A stretch of 20,505 bases of DNA, from positions 1 to 20,505 of IMG/VR virus record IMGVR_UViG_3300049479_000170; one strand, 5' to 3'. This stretch comes from a virus. The translations under genes and the position numbers were made by a program. This document shows positions 11,161 through 20,312 of the stretch, in pieces (the stretch's first letter is position 1; each line of letters starts with the position of its first letter). The notes beneath the pieces are model-generated. The model worked only from the letters and a program-made list of their open reading frames with translations, searched no databases and was not told the DNA's origin.

Positions 11161-11524
11161 TTAATCCTTTATATTGTAATCATGTTTTGAAATAAAAACA
11201 ATTAAAAAATATATTAAAAAATATATTTGTGTTGTTTATTTTGTTGTATAATGTTAGTGTTATATTCTTATAATACCCTCTAAATGCTTATAAATGTGTC
11301 TGGGTCTTGTGGGTTAGGCGAGCGTAGCATAAGACTCGCAGTTTGTCAACCCCCGACCCACCAAAAAGTTCACAGACCGTCACATGATCTCGACGAGACT
11401 CATAAGATCATCATATAACGATATCATAGTGCATATATATTCTTATGTGAATCTCGACGAGACCTGCAGTACTTGCATCTAGTCGAGTTTTATGGTACAA
11501 TAAACACAGTTATCTCGACGAGTT
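11161..11524. other. AT-rich non-coding stretch with possible promoters
   Basis: No credible gene in 364 nt. It begins as A/T runs (AAAAAATATATT-like), then holds TATAAT 11247-11252, a T4-late-like TATAAATG 11289-11296, a stem GCGAG/CTCGC (11318-11322, 11335-11339), TTGTCAACCCC 11343-11353 (also at 13057), an isolated palindrome half-site GTCACA 11379-11384 followed 29 bp later by TATAAC 11414-11419, and the first CTCGACGAG copies. A small RNA could start at one of these boxes. Confidence 0.5.
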
Positions 11525-11623
11525 ATGTACGACGACTACGATCTCGACTATACATACAGCAACGATTACGCGGATCTCGACGAGGACACATATGCCGAAC
11601 TAGGCACATCAGATCTCGACGAG
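11389..11623 (+). repeat. CTCGACGAG repeat cluster 1 (five exact copies plus a variant)
   Basis: Exact copies at 11389-11397, 11453-11461, 11514-11522, 11576-11584 and 11615-11623; variant CTAGTCGAG at 11479-11487; half copy CTCGAC at 11543. The unit has inverted arms CTCG/CGAG around one base. Three copies lie before and two inside the micro-gene at 11525. Confidence 0.85.
11473..11501 (+). promoter_or_regulatory. Sigma70-like promoter with repeat variant in the spacer
   Basis: TTGCAT 11473-11478, 17 bp, TACAAT 11496-11501. The variant CTAGTCGAG (11479-11487) directly abuts the -35, and exact copies lie at 11453-11461 and 11514-11522, so a protein bound there would block polymerase. Confidence 0.6.
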
Positions 11624-11680
11624 GATTATGCACGAGATGGGCAAGATTATCAAGATCTTGCATATCGACACTACGCATGA
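11525..11680 (+). CDS. Acidic Tyr/Asp-rich micro-protein with repeat-encoded DLDE, 51 aa
   Basis: ATG 11525 to TGA 11678-11680: MYDDYDLDYTYSNDYADLDE then DTYAELGTS, DLDEDYARDGQ and a YQDLAYRHYA tail. Two exact copies of the DNA repeat GATCTCGACGAG encode D-L-D-E in frame. The product is extremely acidic, like DNA-mimic proteins, but has no recognised fold. It lies 24 nt after a promoter with repeats on both sides. The alternative frame from 11473 is Arg-rich and has no support. Confidence 0.6.
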   Translation: MYDDYDLDYTYSNDYADLDEDTYAELGTSDLDEDYARDGQDYQDLAYRHYA

Positions 11681-11711
11681 TAGAATCTAGTACACATTAC
11701 ATCGAGTTCTT

Positions 11712-14328: not shown

Positions 14329-14453
14329 TTCTCTTGCTTGGCGCATTTATTGTCACCATGTTCTTGGTGATGTTCTATCTCGAAGACCGTCAAGGTGGCG
14401 GTCTTTATGATCCTGATCCAACTGCACACTATCGTTATCGTAATCACAAATGA
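14325..14453 (+). CDS. Single-span membrane micro-protein, 42 aa
   Basis: ATG 14325, ATGA joints at both ends. MILLLGAFIVTMFLVMFYLE is an N-terminal transmembrane anchor; the tail (DRQGGGLYDPDPTAHYRYRN HK) is Gly, Tyr and Arg-rich. The second membrane peptide in this operon. Confidence 0.65.
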   Translation: MILLLGAFIVTMFLVMFYLEDRQGGGLYDPDPTAHYRYRNHK

Positions 14454-14596
14454 CCAAACAACTTCTGATCTCTCAACTTCGCACTGGCAAAAATGGGAAC
14501 GACATCCTTTTCATTCTTGATGCACTGTGTAATGGGATGGACAGCAGTGAATCTAGTCAAGATAATGTTCCAACACTAGACGAGATCCAATTCTGA
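14450..14596 (+). CDS. Small hypothetical protein, 48 aa
   Basis: ATG 14450 (ATGA). MTKQLLISQLRTGKNGNDIL then FILDALCNGMDSSESSQDNV and PTLDEIQF. The C-terminal codons TLDE contain the repeat variant CTAGACGAG (14576-14584), so coding and operator sequence overlap here. Last gene of the overlapping chain. Confidence 0.65.
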   Translation: MTKQLLISQLRTGKNGNDILFILDALCNGMDSSESSQDNVPTLDEIQF

Positions 14597-14684
14597 AACT
14601 CGTCGAGGTGTGCCAGTTCATCTAGTGGTACACCTCTCTCGACGAGATCAGCAAGATCAACTAGATTATGCACATCTCGACGAG
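14576..14684 (+). repeat. CTCGACGAG repeat cluster 2
   Basis: Variant CTAGACGAG 14576-14584; inverted copy CTCGTCGAG 14599-14607; direct copies 14638-14646 and 14676-14684. The first two unit copies flank a hairpin GAGGTGTGCC/GGTACACCTC, making a composite inverted repeat of about 48 nt (14599-14646). Confidence 0.85.
14641..14669 (+). promoter_or_regulatory. Weak candidate promoter in repeat cluster 2
   Basis: TCGACG (14640-14645, part of a repeat copy) lies 17 bp before TAGATT (14663-14668 region). Each matches the sigma70 consensus only in part. Repeats overlap the putative -35 and lie just downstream of the -10, as expected for repression. Confidence 0.3.
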
Positions 14685-14690
14685 ATCATC

Positions 14691-14879
14691 ATGCAAACTG
14701 CATCTGTTACACCAATCTCGAACAAGGCAAAGAATCGTTTTGCCAATCTTATGGATCGCATCGAGATCTGCATCATTGAGCAACACACAGGCAACAAAGT
14801 GTTTCTCACATCATTGAACGGTCGCAATCACTTCTGGGCAATGATTGACAACGATCCAGACTGGATGGTATCATTCTAA
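14691..14879 (+). CDS. Hypothetical protein, 62 aa
   Basis: ATG 14691, directly behind repeat cluster 2; a frame from 14610 would translate the repeats and is rejected. MQTASVTPISNKAKNRFANL then MDRIEICIIEQHTGNKVFLT and NGRNHFWAMIDNDPDWMVSF: a compact alpha/beta protein with a conserved-looking 'NRFANLMD.IEICIIEQHTGNKVFL.S' core that is common in cyanophages. Function unknown. Confidence 0.75.
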   Translation: MQTASVTPISNKAKNRFANLMDRIEICIIEQHTGNKVFLTSLNGRNHFWAMIDNDPDWMVSF

Positions 14880-15020: not shown

Positions 15021-15040
15021 GTATAACAGTAGCGTTATAC
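15021..15040 (+). promoter_or_regulatory. Perfect dyad GTATAAC - N6 - GTTATAC
   Basis: Seven-base perfect arms, six nt after TATAAT 15009-15014, thus over a likely transcript start. Its reverse complement recurs at 18609-18628 with 18 of 20 bases. Probably a repressor site. Confidence 0.55.
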
Positions 15041-17108: not shown

Positions 17109-17366
17109 ATGAACCTTAAGACCGCAATCCGCGCCGCCGTCCGCGCCACCCTGATTCAGAACGGTGAGCAAACATGTTCTGAGATCGTCAGGGGCATGGG
17201 AATGGATCCCAGAAAGCACAAGGGCACCGTTCACGCCATTATGGTTGAAATGGAGCGGGAGGGCATCCTAGGGGCATGGAGAACCGACAGTGGCAAGCGC
17301 GATAAGTGGTTCATCTGGGGGAACCGCATCCGTAAGCGTGATCGGTTCTTCGCTCTGTTCGCCTGA
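17109..17366 (+). CDS. Winged-helix-like DNA-binding candidate, 85 aa
   Basis: ATG 17109; the extension to 17040 is rejected because it starts in the promoter. MNLKTAIRAAVRATLIQNGE (helix 1), TCSEIVRGMGMD (helix 2), HKGTVHAIMVEMEREGILGA (recognition-helix-like), then a basic wing (TDSGKRDKWFIWG) and a basic tail (NRIRKRDRFFALFA) fit a compact winged helix. This makes it the best candidate regulator encoded in the window, though no link to any operator is shown. GC-richer than the first half of the window. Confidence 0.6.
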   Translation: MNLKTAIRAAVRATLIQNGEQTCSEIVRGMGMDPRKHKGTVHAIMVEMEREGILGAWRTDSGKRDKWFIWGNRIRKRDRFFALFA

Positions 17367-17926: not shown

Positions 17927-18082
17927 ATGCAAACATTCCTCACCGCTGAAGAATTGATCCAGTTAGTTACAACTGGAATCGTAGAATTGACTGATGATTT
18001 GATGCTCAGAATGTCAGAATCTTATGAAGATTCAGAATGGTACAATGACCCCAACAATGTTATGTCACACCACCACTACTGA
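17927..18082 (+). CDS. Small hypothetical protein, 51 aa
   Basis: ATG 17927 follows TTACACCACACC. MQTFLTAEELIQLVTTGIVE, then LTDDLMLRMSESYEDSEWYN and a His cluster (MSHHHY). Helical, acidic. A TGATG joint to the next gene. Confidence 0.65.
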   Translation: MQTFLTAEELIQLVTTGIVELTDDLMLRMSESYEDSEWYNDPNNVMSHHHY

Positions 18083-18240
18083 TGATTAAATCTTTACATT
18101 CTGAGTGGCAAACTGCTTTTGCTGAGTGGCATCTTCATCGTACTGATGAGTGTGCAGAAGTAGAAAAAACTGCACGACAAAATTATCTTTCACTCATTCG
18201 TGAAATGAGAAAAGCAAAGGTTAATTCTCGACGAGTATAA
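18082..18240 (+). CDS. Small hypothetical protein, 52 aa
   Basis: ATG 18082 (TGATG). MIKSLHSEWQTAFAEWHLHR, TDECAEVEKTARQNYLSLIR, then EMRKAKVNSRRV: helical with a basic tail. The last codons are made of a CTCGACGAG repeat (S-R-R) and the stop TAA is part of the TATAAT box of the next gene. Function unknown. Confidence 0.65.
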   Translation: MIKSLHSEWQTAFAEWHLHRTDECAEVEKTARQNYLSLIREMRKAKVNSRRV

Positions 18241-18298
18241 TCTAGTCGAGAGCGCACACATTATCTCGTCGAGACACACATACATACATCTCGACGAG
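18227..18298 (+). repeat. CTCGACGAG repeat cluster 3
   Basis: Direct copy 18227-18235, variant CTAGTCGAG 18242-18250, inverted copy CTCGTCGAG 18265-18273, direct copy 18290-18298. Between them runs a (CA/TA)-rich leader (ACACACATACATACATC). Confidence 0.85.
18236..18241 (+). promoter_or_regulatory. -10 box TATAAT clamped by two repeat copies
   Basis: TATAAT is flanked without any gap by CTCGACGAG on the left and CTAGTCGAG on the right. No convincing -35 lies 17 bp upstream. A factor binding the repeats would necessarily control this promoter. Confidence 0.65.
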
Positions 18299-18325: not shown

Positions 18326-18481
18326 ATGAACAATCAAATCAATTCAATTGGTTTCACAATCACTTATCAAACGCCATACAATAATTGTGAATGGCGCACA
18401 CAATCTTTCACCACAAAAGAAGAGGCAGAAAGAATGATTAGATTCTATCAGTCTTGTGGAAGTCCTGCTAAGTTTGTATAA
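18326..18481 (+). CDS. Small hypothetical protein, 51 aa
   Basis: ATG 18326. MNNQINSIGFTITYQTPYNN, CEWRTQSFTTKEEAERMIRF, then YQSCGSPAKFV: strand-strand-helix layout, soluble, with two cysteines. The 'F.T.EEAERMI.FY' part is the pattern of small proteins that wrap a beta hairpin over one helix. Governed by repeat cluster 3. Followed by 315 nt without a gene. Confidence 0.7.
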   Translation: MNNQINSIGFTITYQTPYNNCEWRTQSFTTKEEAERMIRFYQSCGSPAKFV

Positions 18482-18508: not shown

Positions 18509-18599
18509 GTATAAAGAACTAACTCAGGATTAAGTGTAGTTTGTTAGTCAGTGGTGTGGTTTAGTTCTCTACACTTAGTCCTGTCTTAGTTCTTTATAC
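18509..18599 (+). ncRNA. Long stem-loop, possible structured RNA
   Basis: Arms 18509-18539 and 18569-18599: 28 Watson-Crick pairs, one G-U and two mismatches over 31 positions, 29 nt loop rich in G and T. No T-run follows, so it is more than a terminator. No RNA family recognised. Confidence 0.5.
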
Positions 18600-18610
18600 A
18601 AACTGGGGTC

Positions 18611-18696
18611 ATAACGCTACTGTTATACTGCAGATTCCGCAAGCGTTATGATGCACATGTCGCTACTGTTATGACATAGATTCCGCAAGCGTTATG
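18611..18696 (+). repeat. Two direct copies of a 40-mer
   Basis: Copies 18611-18650 and 18657-18696 share CGCTACTGTTAT, AGATTCCGCAAGCGTTATG and 33 of 40 bases overall. Copy 1 has self-complementary ends ATAACGCT/AGCGTTAT; copy 2 has ATGTC/GACAT. The first 18 nt recur inverted at 15021-15040. Confidence 0.8.
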
Positions 18697-19438: not shown

Positions 19439-20158
19439 AAAAAATTCCGGCAATAAAATATGATAGAATACCTTTATATAAAAAATAAAAAAATGAAAGA
19501 ATATCCAGAAGGAACAATTAGAACAAATAAGAAAGGATATCAGTTTATCAAGAAAAATGGGAAATGGAATTACATAAAAAAACCAAGAGAAGATTGGAAT
19601 GTCCCTATAAAAAAATCAAAAAAAGTGAAATATAATTATCCACCAATAAAAATCCCAGACAATATGAAAGAAACACAATATACTGGTTACTATGTTACTG
19701 AAGATGGTAAAGTTTATAGAAAACCAGGAAAATATGATAGAACGGGTTTTTACGGTGAAATCAACGAATATGGATTAATTTACTTAAAACCGGCATATCG
19801 AGGATCGTCAAAGAGTAAAAAGTACCAATATCAATGTGTTAATATTTCATTGTATGATGAAAAAGGAAAATTTTTAAAACAAATCAAGAGAAGTGTTCAT
19901 CAATTAGTTGCAGAAACTTTTATACCAAATCCAAATAACTATACTGAGATAGATCATATAGATCGAAATAAACAAAACAATTGCAAAGATAATTTAAAGT
20001 GGACAACAAGATTTGAAAATATGAATTCATGGGAGAGAGACGGTGAATACAGGAAGAAACTGTCAGAAAATACCAGGTGGCACAAAATCTCTCATAATAC
20101 TCATATATAAAAAACAAAAATAACTTTTATATTCCCCTATAATGAAAAAAAATTCCGG
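19439..20158 (+). mobile_element. HNH homing-endonuclease insertion flanked by a 12 bp direct repeat
   Basis: AAAAAATTCCGG occurs at 19439-19450 and 20147-20158, on both sides of the A-rich HNH gene, and TATAAT stands shortly before each copy (19420-19425, 20139-20144 region). The right copy is at codons 2-6 of the AbrB-like gene. This suggests that insertion duplicated the start of that gene. Confidence 0.45.
19460..20110 (+). CDS. HNH homing endonuclease, 216 aa
   Basis: C-terminal HNH motif: VHQLVAETFIPNPNNYTEID (H147), DHID at 165-168 with H166, KDNLKW at 176-181 with N178. N-terminal residues 15-37 (YPEGTIRTNKKGYQFIKKNG) form the small domain common on free-standing phage HNH enzymes, followed by a NUMOD4-like segment (YYVTEDGKVYRKPG at 77-90). 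It cuts intron- or gene-less alleles of a target and spreads by repair. Start 19460 or ATG 19493. Base use is far more A-rich than in neighbouring genes, a sign of recent transfer. Confidence 0.85.
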   Translation: MIEYLYIKNKKMKEYPEGTIRTNKKGYQFIKKNGKWNYIKKPREDWNVPIKKSKKVKYNYPPIKIPDNMKETQYTGYYVTEDGKVYRKPGKYDRTGFYGEINEYGLIYLKPAYRGSSKSKKYQYQCVNISLYDEKGKFLKQIKRSVHQLVAETFIPNPNNYTEIDHIDRNKQNNCKDNLKWTTRFENMNSWERDGEYRKKLSENTRWHKISHNTHI

Positions 20159-20312
20159 AGATATTTTTGAGTCCATAGAGATCGACCCAATTAGCGGACA
20201 ATATTACATCACCATACCAGAACAAATTATGAATGAATTGGAATGGTACGAAGACACTCGAATTAAATTTTCAGTTGAGGGTGGTGAGGTCATTCTGACA
20301 GAGGCGGATTGA
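20142..20312 (+). CDS. AbrB/MazE-like small protein, 56 aa
   Basis: MKKNSGDIFESIEIDPISGQ, then YYITIPEQIMNELEWYEDTR and IKFSVEGGEVILTEAD. The pattern 'G.YYI.IPE.IMNEL.WYEDT.I.F...GGEV.L' is the swapped-hairpin AbrB fold, expected to bind DNA as a dimer. TATAAT with an A-tract overlaps the start (20137-20142), so the ATG is inside the box or the box is fortuitous. It could regulate structural or late genes next door; that is inference. Confidence 0.75.
   Translation: MKKNSGDIFESIEIDPISGQYYITIPEQIMNELEWYEDTRIKFSVEGGEVILTEAD

Follow-up and report, generated by a model that had tools for sequence, protein, structure and literature searches.

Arrays of a conserved palindrome at the putative control regions of small genes in a virus of freshwater cyanobacteria

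The repeat units described here, found in a 20,505-nucleotide stretch of viral DNA (positions 1 to 20,505 of IMG/VR virus record IMGVR_UViG_3300049479_000170, hereafter the window), are real and important. The word CTCGWCGAG occurs 11 times as an exact match in the window, against a mean of 0.05 in dinucleotide shuffles, and once half-site variants (CTAG for CTCG) are included the units form three clusters: array A at 11389-11623, array B at 14576-14684 and array C at 18227-18298. Judged from sequence comparison, they are conserved palindromic DNA sites of a virus of freshwater cyanobacteria, and they mark three loci of small genes at what appear to be their control regions. The reading that we favour, and regard as probable, is that the arrays are operators recognised by a dimeric DNA-binding protein. 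This regulator is most likely encoded by the phage and would most likely repress strong early promoters of the sigma-70 type.

When 220 distinct units were pooled, the consensus was ATCTMGWCKAGAT, a 13-bp palindrome with symmetric A/T flanks and a free, interchangeable centre base. The one-base variant CTAGTCGAG, in which C3 is changed to A, accounts for 36 of the 220. Comparison of orthologous positions revealed that a unit can change its orientation or a half-site with the neighbouring units unchanged. The palindromy of ATCTMGWCKAGAT is that expected of an operator for a dimeric regulator, and the occurrence of the units in multiple copies at only a few loci is also what such operators display. 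A viral scan for pairs of CTCGWCGAG was unselective and relatives were therefore gathered through protein-anchored loci. The literature matches listed for CTCGACGAG, the form which recurs in all three arrays, were unrelated.

The nearest annotated relative of the window is the freshwater Synechococcus myovirus S-SRM01, an isolated cyanophage. Its genome has all three arrays, located at 85.6, 88.1-88.3 and 90.9-91.0 kb, and two single matches outside them. No report of the unit motif was found, and the text of the S-SRM01 paper contains neither the word "promoter" nor the word "motif". The three clusters are also present in IMG/VR relatives, and in one of these, of 174,667 bp, 12 out of 12 matches to CTMGWCKAG lie inside them. 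S-T4 has array A only, with a second copy near its other end that looks like a terminal duplicate. Across 28 genomes the paired-unit pattern gave three to eight matches in 16 and zero in the other 12, and a reversed control pattern gave zero in all 28; the arrays are absent from DSL-LC03, DSL-LC02, S-SM2, S-B05, S-CREM1 and Bellamy. Marine relatives without arrays carry a plain TTGACA-17-TATAAT before the orthologous genes. In a separate lineage represented by the genome G073, the A2 gene is preceded by an array in which a unit occupies the spacer of TTGACG-17-TATAAT. An array-C-like run of seven units was also seen in a contig binned as Rhodobacteraceae (RGAJ01000223.1), which may be stray cyanophage DNA.

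The features of array A in the window are as follows; units, being sites rather than genes, are given as unstranded here and below.

11389-11397, unstranded: most upstream unit, CTCGACGAG
11453-11461, unstranded: unit upstream of the promoter, CTCGACGAG
11473-11478, plus strand: promoter -35, TTGCAT
11479-11487, unstranded: unit inside the -35/-10 spacer, CTAGTCGAG
11496-11501, plus strand: promoter -10, TACAAT, with a TG extension, 29 nt before the ATG
11514-11522, unstranded: unit just upstream of the ORF A start, CTCGACGAG
11525-11680, plus strand: ORF A, a conserved acidic 51-aa protein
11576-11584, unstranded: unit inside ORF A, encoding LDE
11615-11623, unstranded: unit inside ORF A, encoding LDE
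11658-11686, plus strand: second promoter, TTGCAT-17-TAGAAT followed by CTAG, at -31 from the ATG; at the related locus L251 the -10 of this promoter runs straight into a full unit

The 80 related loci sampled for array A reduced to 55 distinct upstream regions, of which 54 contain TTGNNN-17/18-TANANT. Of these 54 distinct promoters, 51 have a unit between the -35 and the -10 which starts within -1 to +1 of the end of the -35; by chance, about 1.6% of spacers would do so. Further units occur in the relatives just before the ORF A ATG and upstream of the -35, and at one locus (L291) all three promoter-region units have a G/C centre, a concerted change. Selection on the word itself is also evident within the coding sequence; in 58 distinct coding sequences of ORF A, 89 of the 106 LDE tripeptides are written as CTCGACGAG, where codon usage in the window predicts 0.9%, and therefore it is the DNA or RNA word which is under selection. 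ORF A itself is a genuine protein, acidic and conserved. More than 400 related stretches are present in IMG/VR, and in S-SRM01 the ORF is unannotated (at approximately 85.6-85.8 kb).

Array B likewise holds its units in a fixed relation to a promoter:

14576-14584, unstranded: unit inside the upstream ORF (14450-14596), CTAGACGAG
14599-14607, unstranded: unit CTCGTCGAG
14638-14646, unstranded: unit CTCGACGAG, overlapping the -35 position (TCGACG, 14639-14644)
14662-14667, plus strand: -10, TAGATT, exactly 15 bp after the unit and 29 nt before the ATG
14676-14684, unstranded: unit CTCGACGAG, at approximately +3 to +11
14691-14879, plus strand: gene B (phrog_1653), no assigned function

A unit followed by 14-16 bp and then TANANT was found in 33 of 34 distinct regions, the distance being exactly 15 bp in 30 of them. 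With this spacing the -35 position (TCGACG) falls within the unit. The -10 of the relatives reads TAGATT, TATAAT, TAGAAT or TACAAT, and the second unit around +3 to +11 is found in about half of the distinct regions. At 14599-14607 the centre base is flipped in most relatives, giving CTCGACGAG. The -35 TCGACG and -10 TAGATT are weak matches, and this counts against the operator explanation. Between two of the array B units a dyad, GTGCCAC-N8-GTGGCAC (14608-14632), is conserved in relatives, with both arms varying in sequence.

A protein would be expected to bind these units, most likely one encoded by the phage, and repression would then come about by occlusion of RNA polymerase, with a unit in the spacer at array A, over the -35 at array B and around +1 at both. 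The original prediction, made at array C, had proposed that the units are protein sites lying over promoter elements; the fixed positions at arrays A and B support this well, whereas the stretch for which it was proposed, 18227-18250, does not.

That stretch forms the upstream end of array C, one of the three arrays of the 13-bp palindrome, and contributes two of its four sites:

18082-18240, plus strand: small ORF, its last codons and stop overlapping unit C1 and the TATAAT
18227-18235, unstranded: unit C1, CTCGACGAG (palindrome CTCG-A-CGAG)
18236-18241, plus strand: TATAAT between units, holding the TAA of ORF 18082-18240; a -10 function is unsupported
18242-18250, unstranded: unit C2, CTAGTCGAG (half-site variant CTAG)
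18265-18273, unstranded: unit C3, CTCGTCGAG
18290-18298, unstranded: unit C4, CTCGACGAG
18326-18481, plus strand: gene C, 51 aa, no assigned function, downstream of array C

Gene C has at least 79 related loci in IMG/VR and no relatives were found among annotated phages. The array is always rebuilt upstream of it, with one to seven units, and the unit variants, spacings and upstream genes all differ. In S-SRM01 (L252, 12340-12910) array C is intact but gene C is absent, its place being taken by a gene for an HNH endonuclease on the opposite strand. No conserved promoter was found at array C, which counts against the operator explanation, and its units show no fixed-position overlap with promoter elements.

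Array C is also where one alternative applies, namely that it acts as RNA, with neighbouring units pairing to form hairpins in the gene C leader which protect or regulate the mRNA; we consider this unlikely. C3 and C4 form a 13-bp perfect inverted repeat with a loop of 14 nt, the leader in the window is predicted to fold at -24.5 kcal/mol (z = -5.8), and the linkers of array C are poor in G. Among 25 distinct C unit strings, 19 contain at least one perfectly complementary neighbour pair, with three different pair types represented, where 13 would be expected (p 0.004, range 0.004-0.05, these p-values being inflated as the sequences are related). Such reverse complementarity between neighbours, somewhat above chance, fits an RNA hairpin and counts against the operator explanation. 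However, the folding energy compared with random unit orientation gives a mean z of only -0.5, the minus strand folds equally well or better in nearly all arrays, and no Rfam family scored above its gathering threshold. An RNA role also leaves unexplained the promoter register at arrays A and B and the units upstream of +1 at array A, which cannot work solely as RNA from that promoter.

A second alternative, that 18236-18241 is the working -10 of a gene C promoter and is covered by a factor bound to the flanking units, was the substance of the original prediction, and is improbable. Its description of the sequence was accurate: CTCGACGAG-TATAAT-CTAGTCGAG is contiguous at 18227-18250, a single occurrence in the window, the two repeat units are genuine (as the excess of CTCGWCGAG over shuffles attests), and the same DNA supplies the last codons and stop of ORF 18082-18240 (...TCT CGA CGA GTA TAA, S-R-R-V-stop), the TAA lying inside the TATAAT. 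Relatives of this ORF, present in 7 of 45 fetched regions, terminate at or near the same junction, and for this reason it is probably a real gene; the overlap with its stop codon is, as far as comparison with relatives goes, real but local, being particular to this genome and its close kin. With three functions claimed for 24 bp, the unit and the stop codon thus stand, and the third, the -10, is unlikely.

In its favour, the hexamer is a perfect TATAAT placed between units, as are the -10 boxes of array A with looser spacing, and at one array A locus (L251) a -10-like TACAAT is followed directly by a full unit, CTAGACTAG. TATAAT is, moreover, strand-biased in the phage (21 on the plus strand vs 4 on the minus), and some phage promoters may lack a -35. 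Against it, neither a -35 at 16-18 bp (the best candidate being AAGCAA) nor the TG of an extended -10 was found for this hexamer. Under a matrix whose values are approximate, it scores 4.3, below the median of 6.8 for the top-scoring site after shuffling of a 230-bp stretch, compared with 11.0 for the array A promoters, and a consensus promoter scan did not list it. Its position is at odds with the remainder of the phage as well. Hexamers resembling a -10 are found 28-34 nt upstream of the ATG at 14 gene starts (window 216-20361), including array A (-29), the second promoter at A (-31) and array B (-29), which, together with the strand bias, suggests many single-gene promoters; the TATAAT at 18236, by contrast, lies at -90.

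Nor is the arrangement conserved. Among 32 distinct C arrays, only 3 have TATAAT between units; near kin have AATAAT or AATAGT in its place and the remainder have no such clamp. The 15-bp unit spacing which frames a hexamer is confined to about seven distinct C sequences (TATAAT in three, AATAAT in three and AATAGT in one), and the clamp with [T/A]ATAAT to five IMG/VR contigs, all among the relatives of the clade. The remaining linkers are longer, for example AACGCGCACATAAAT. On score, position and conservation the clamped -10 was rejected as a conserved promoter. It is probably fortuitous and not functional as a promoter; most likely a linker became shorter and happens to read TATAAT and to give a stop codon. 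The four sites, and not the TATAAT box, are probably what array C acts through.

About as improbable is the possibility that the units are activator sites which aid or replace the -35, in principle as the MotA boxes of T4 do. There is a likeness to T4 middle promoters in that a site lies near the -35 of an extended -10 promoter, as at array A, and at array B the -35 is occupied by a unit whose distance to a weak -10 is fixed at 15 bp. However, the register is not constant across arrays: the unit starts 17 bp upstream of the -10 at A but 24 bp upstream at B, a difference more readily reconciled with an operator than with a sigma-factor element. Additional units also lie downstream of +1 and inside coding sequence, and homologues of motA and asi are absent from the cyanomyoviruses (PMC2984593). 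That the units are non-regulatory sites for replication, partition, packaging or recombination is very improbable, for iterated palindromes within approximately 7 kb of a phage genome and a rearranged array C with differing upstream genes would suit such a role, but not the fixed positions of units relative to sigma-70 elements in dozens of distinct sequences.

Returning to the operator reading, the question arises as to which protein could bind the sites. A host regulator was considered and set aside: when 84,980 genomes of bacteria and archaea were scanned for pairs of AT-flanked units, zero records titled as a cyanobacterium were recovered, which favours a phage-encoded factor; the Rhodobacteraceae contig mentioned above was one of the hits. 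The window offers a candidate:

20142-20312, plus strand: 56-aa protein with a predicted MazE/AbrB fold, candidate regulator

Its gene is among those common to array-bearing genomes and missing from array-less ones, being present in 15 of 15 tested array-bearing genomes of the clade whose contig appears to reach the locus, and in 0 of 12 array-less contigs and 0 of 5 array-less isolates. AlphaFold2 and Foldseek place the protein alongside MazE, SpoVT and AbrB (pLDDT 86.7); the top Foldseek match, a truncated EcMazE, has a probability of 1.00 but an E-value of 0.02. The protein is, however, strongly acidic, with few basic residues on the putative DNA face, and its gene is absent from G073 even though G073 carries an array, both of which count against the operator explanation. 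As an array regulator it is thus a weak candidate, since its association with the arrays is confounded with clade. The protein of phrog_3577 co-occurs with the arrays, G073 included, and no DNA-binding domain was found in it with Pfam. A winged-helix-like gene at 17115-17366 was rejected as the regulator, as it was not found in S-SRM01 or S-T4. Two MazE/AbrB-like proteins are encoded in this one phage region, at 1194-1868 and 20142-20312.

Known systems provide partial parallels. Repressor operators of the lambda OL/OR type consist of one palindromic site in several copies, overlapping promoter elements at few loci, and the cyanophage arrays resemble them in being a multi-copy palindrome over promoter elements at few loci. 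They differ in that the array-bearing phages are T4-like, with S-SRM01 described as lytic (PMC8557907), in that there are three or more loci, and in that some sites are in coding sequence. The stoperators of mycobacteriophages are asymmetric, phage-specific short sites distributed genome-wide and also within transcribed regions (PMC9283540); the cyanophage units are also phage-specific, short and partly in transcribed regions, but they are palindromic and confined to three clusters. With the MazE/AbrB autoregulators the likeness is in the predicted fold of the 20142-20312 protein, for which EcMazE is the best match, and the difference is in its highly acidic character, its sparsely basic putative DNA face and the fact that no toxin gene was identified.

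It is possible, and we put this forward tentatively, that freshwater T4-like cyanophages have a palindromic operator regulon of their own, comprising three promoter-linked arrays and a putative DNA-binding protein of the phage, for which the MazE/AbrB-fold protein at 20142 is one possibility; this protein would turn small early genes on or off in the course of a lytic infection. The question touched upon is that of how gene expression is timed in T4-like cyanophages which have no MotA and AsiA, and the presence of a conserved, promoter-positioned family of sites in the isolate S-SRM01 makes it experimentally testable.

Two further elements were observed in the window. The first is a second operator-like element, ATAACGCTACTGTTAT, found at 15023-15038, 18611-18626 and 18657-18672, with four sites at three or fewer mismatches against 0.08 expected. 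The second lies downstream of gene C at 18509-18599, where there is a 31-bp inverted repeat, 90% complementary, with a loop of 29 nt.
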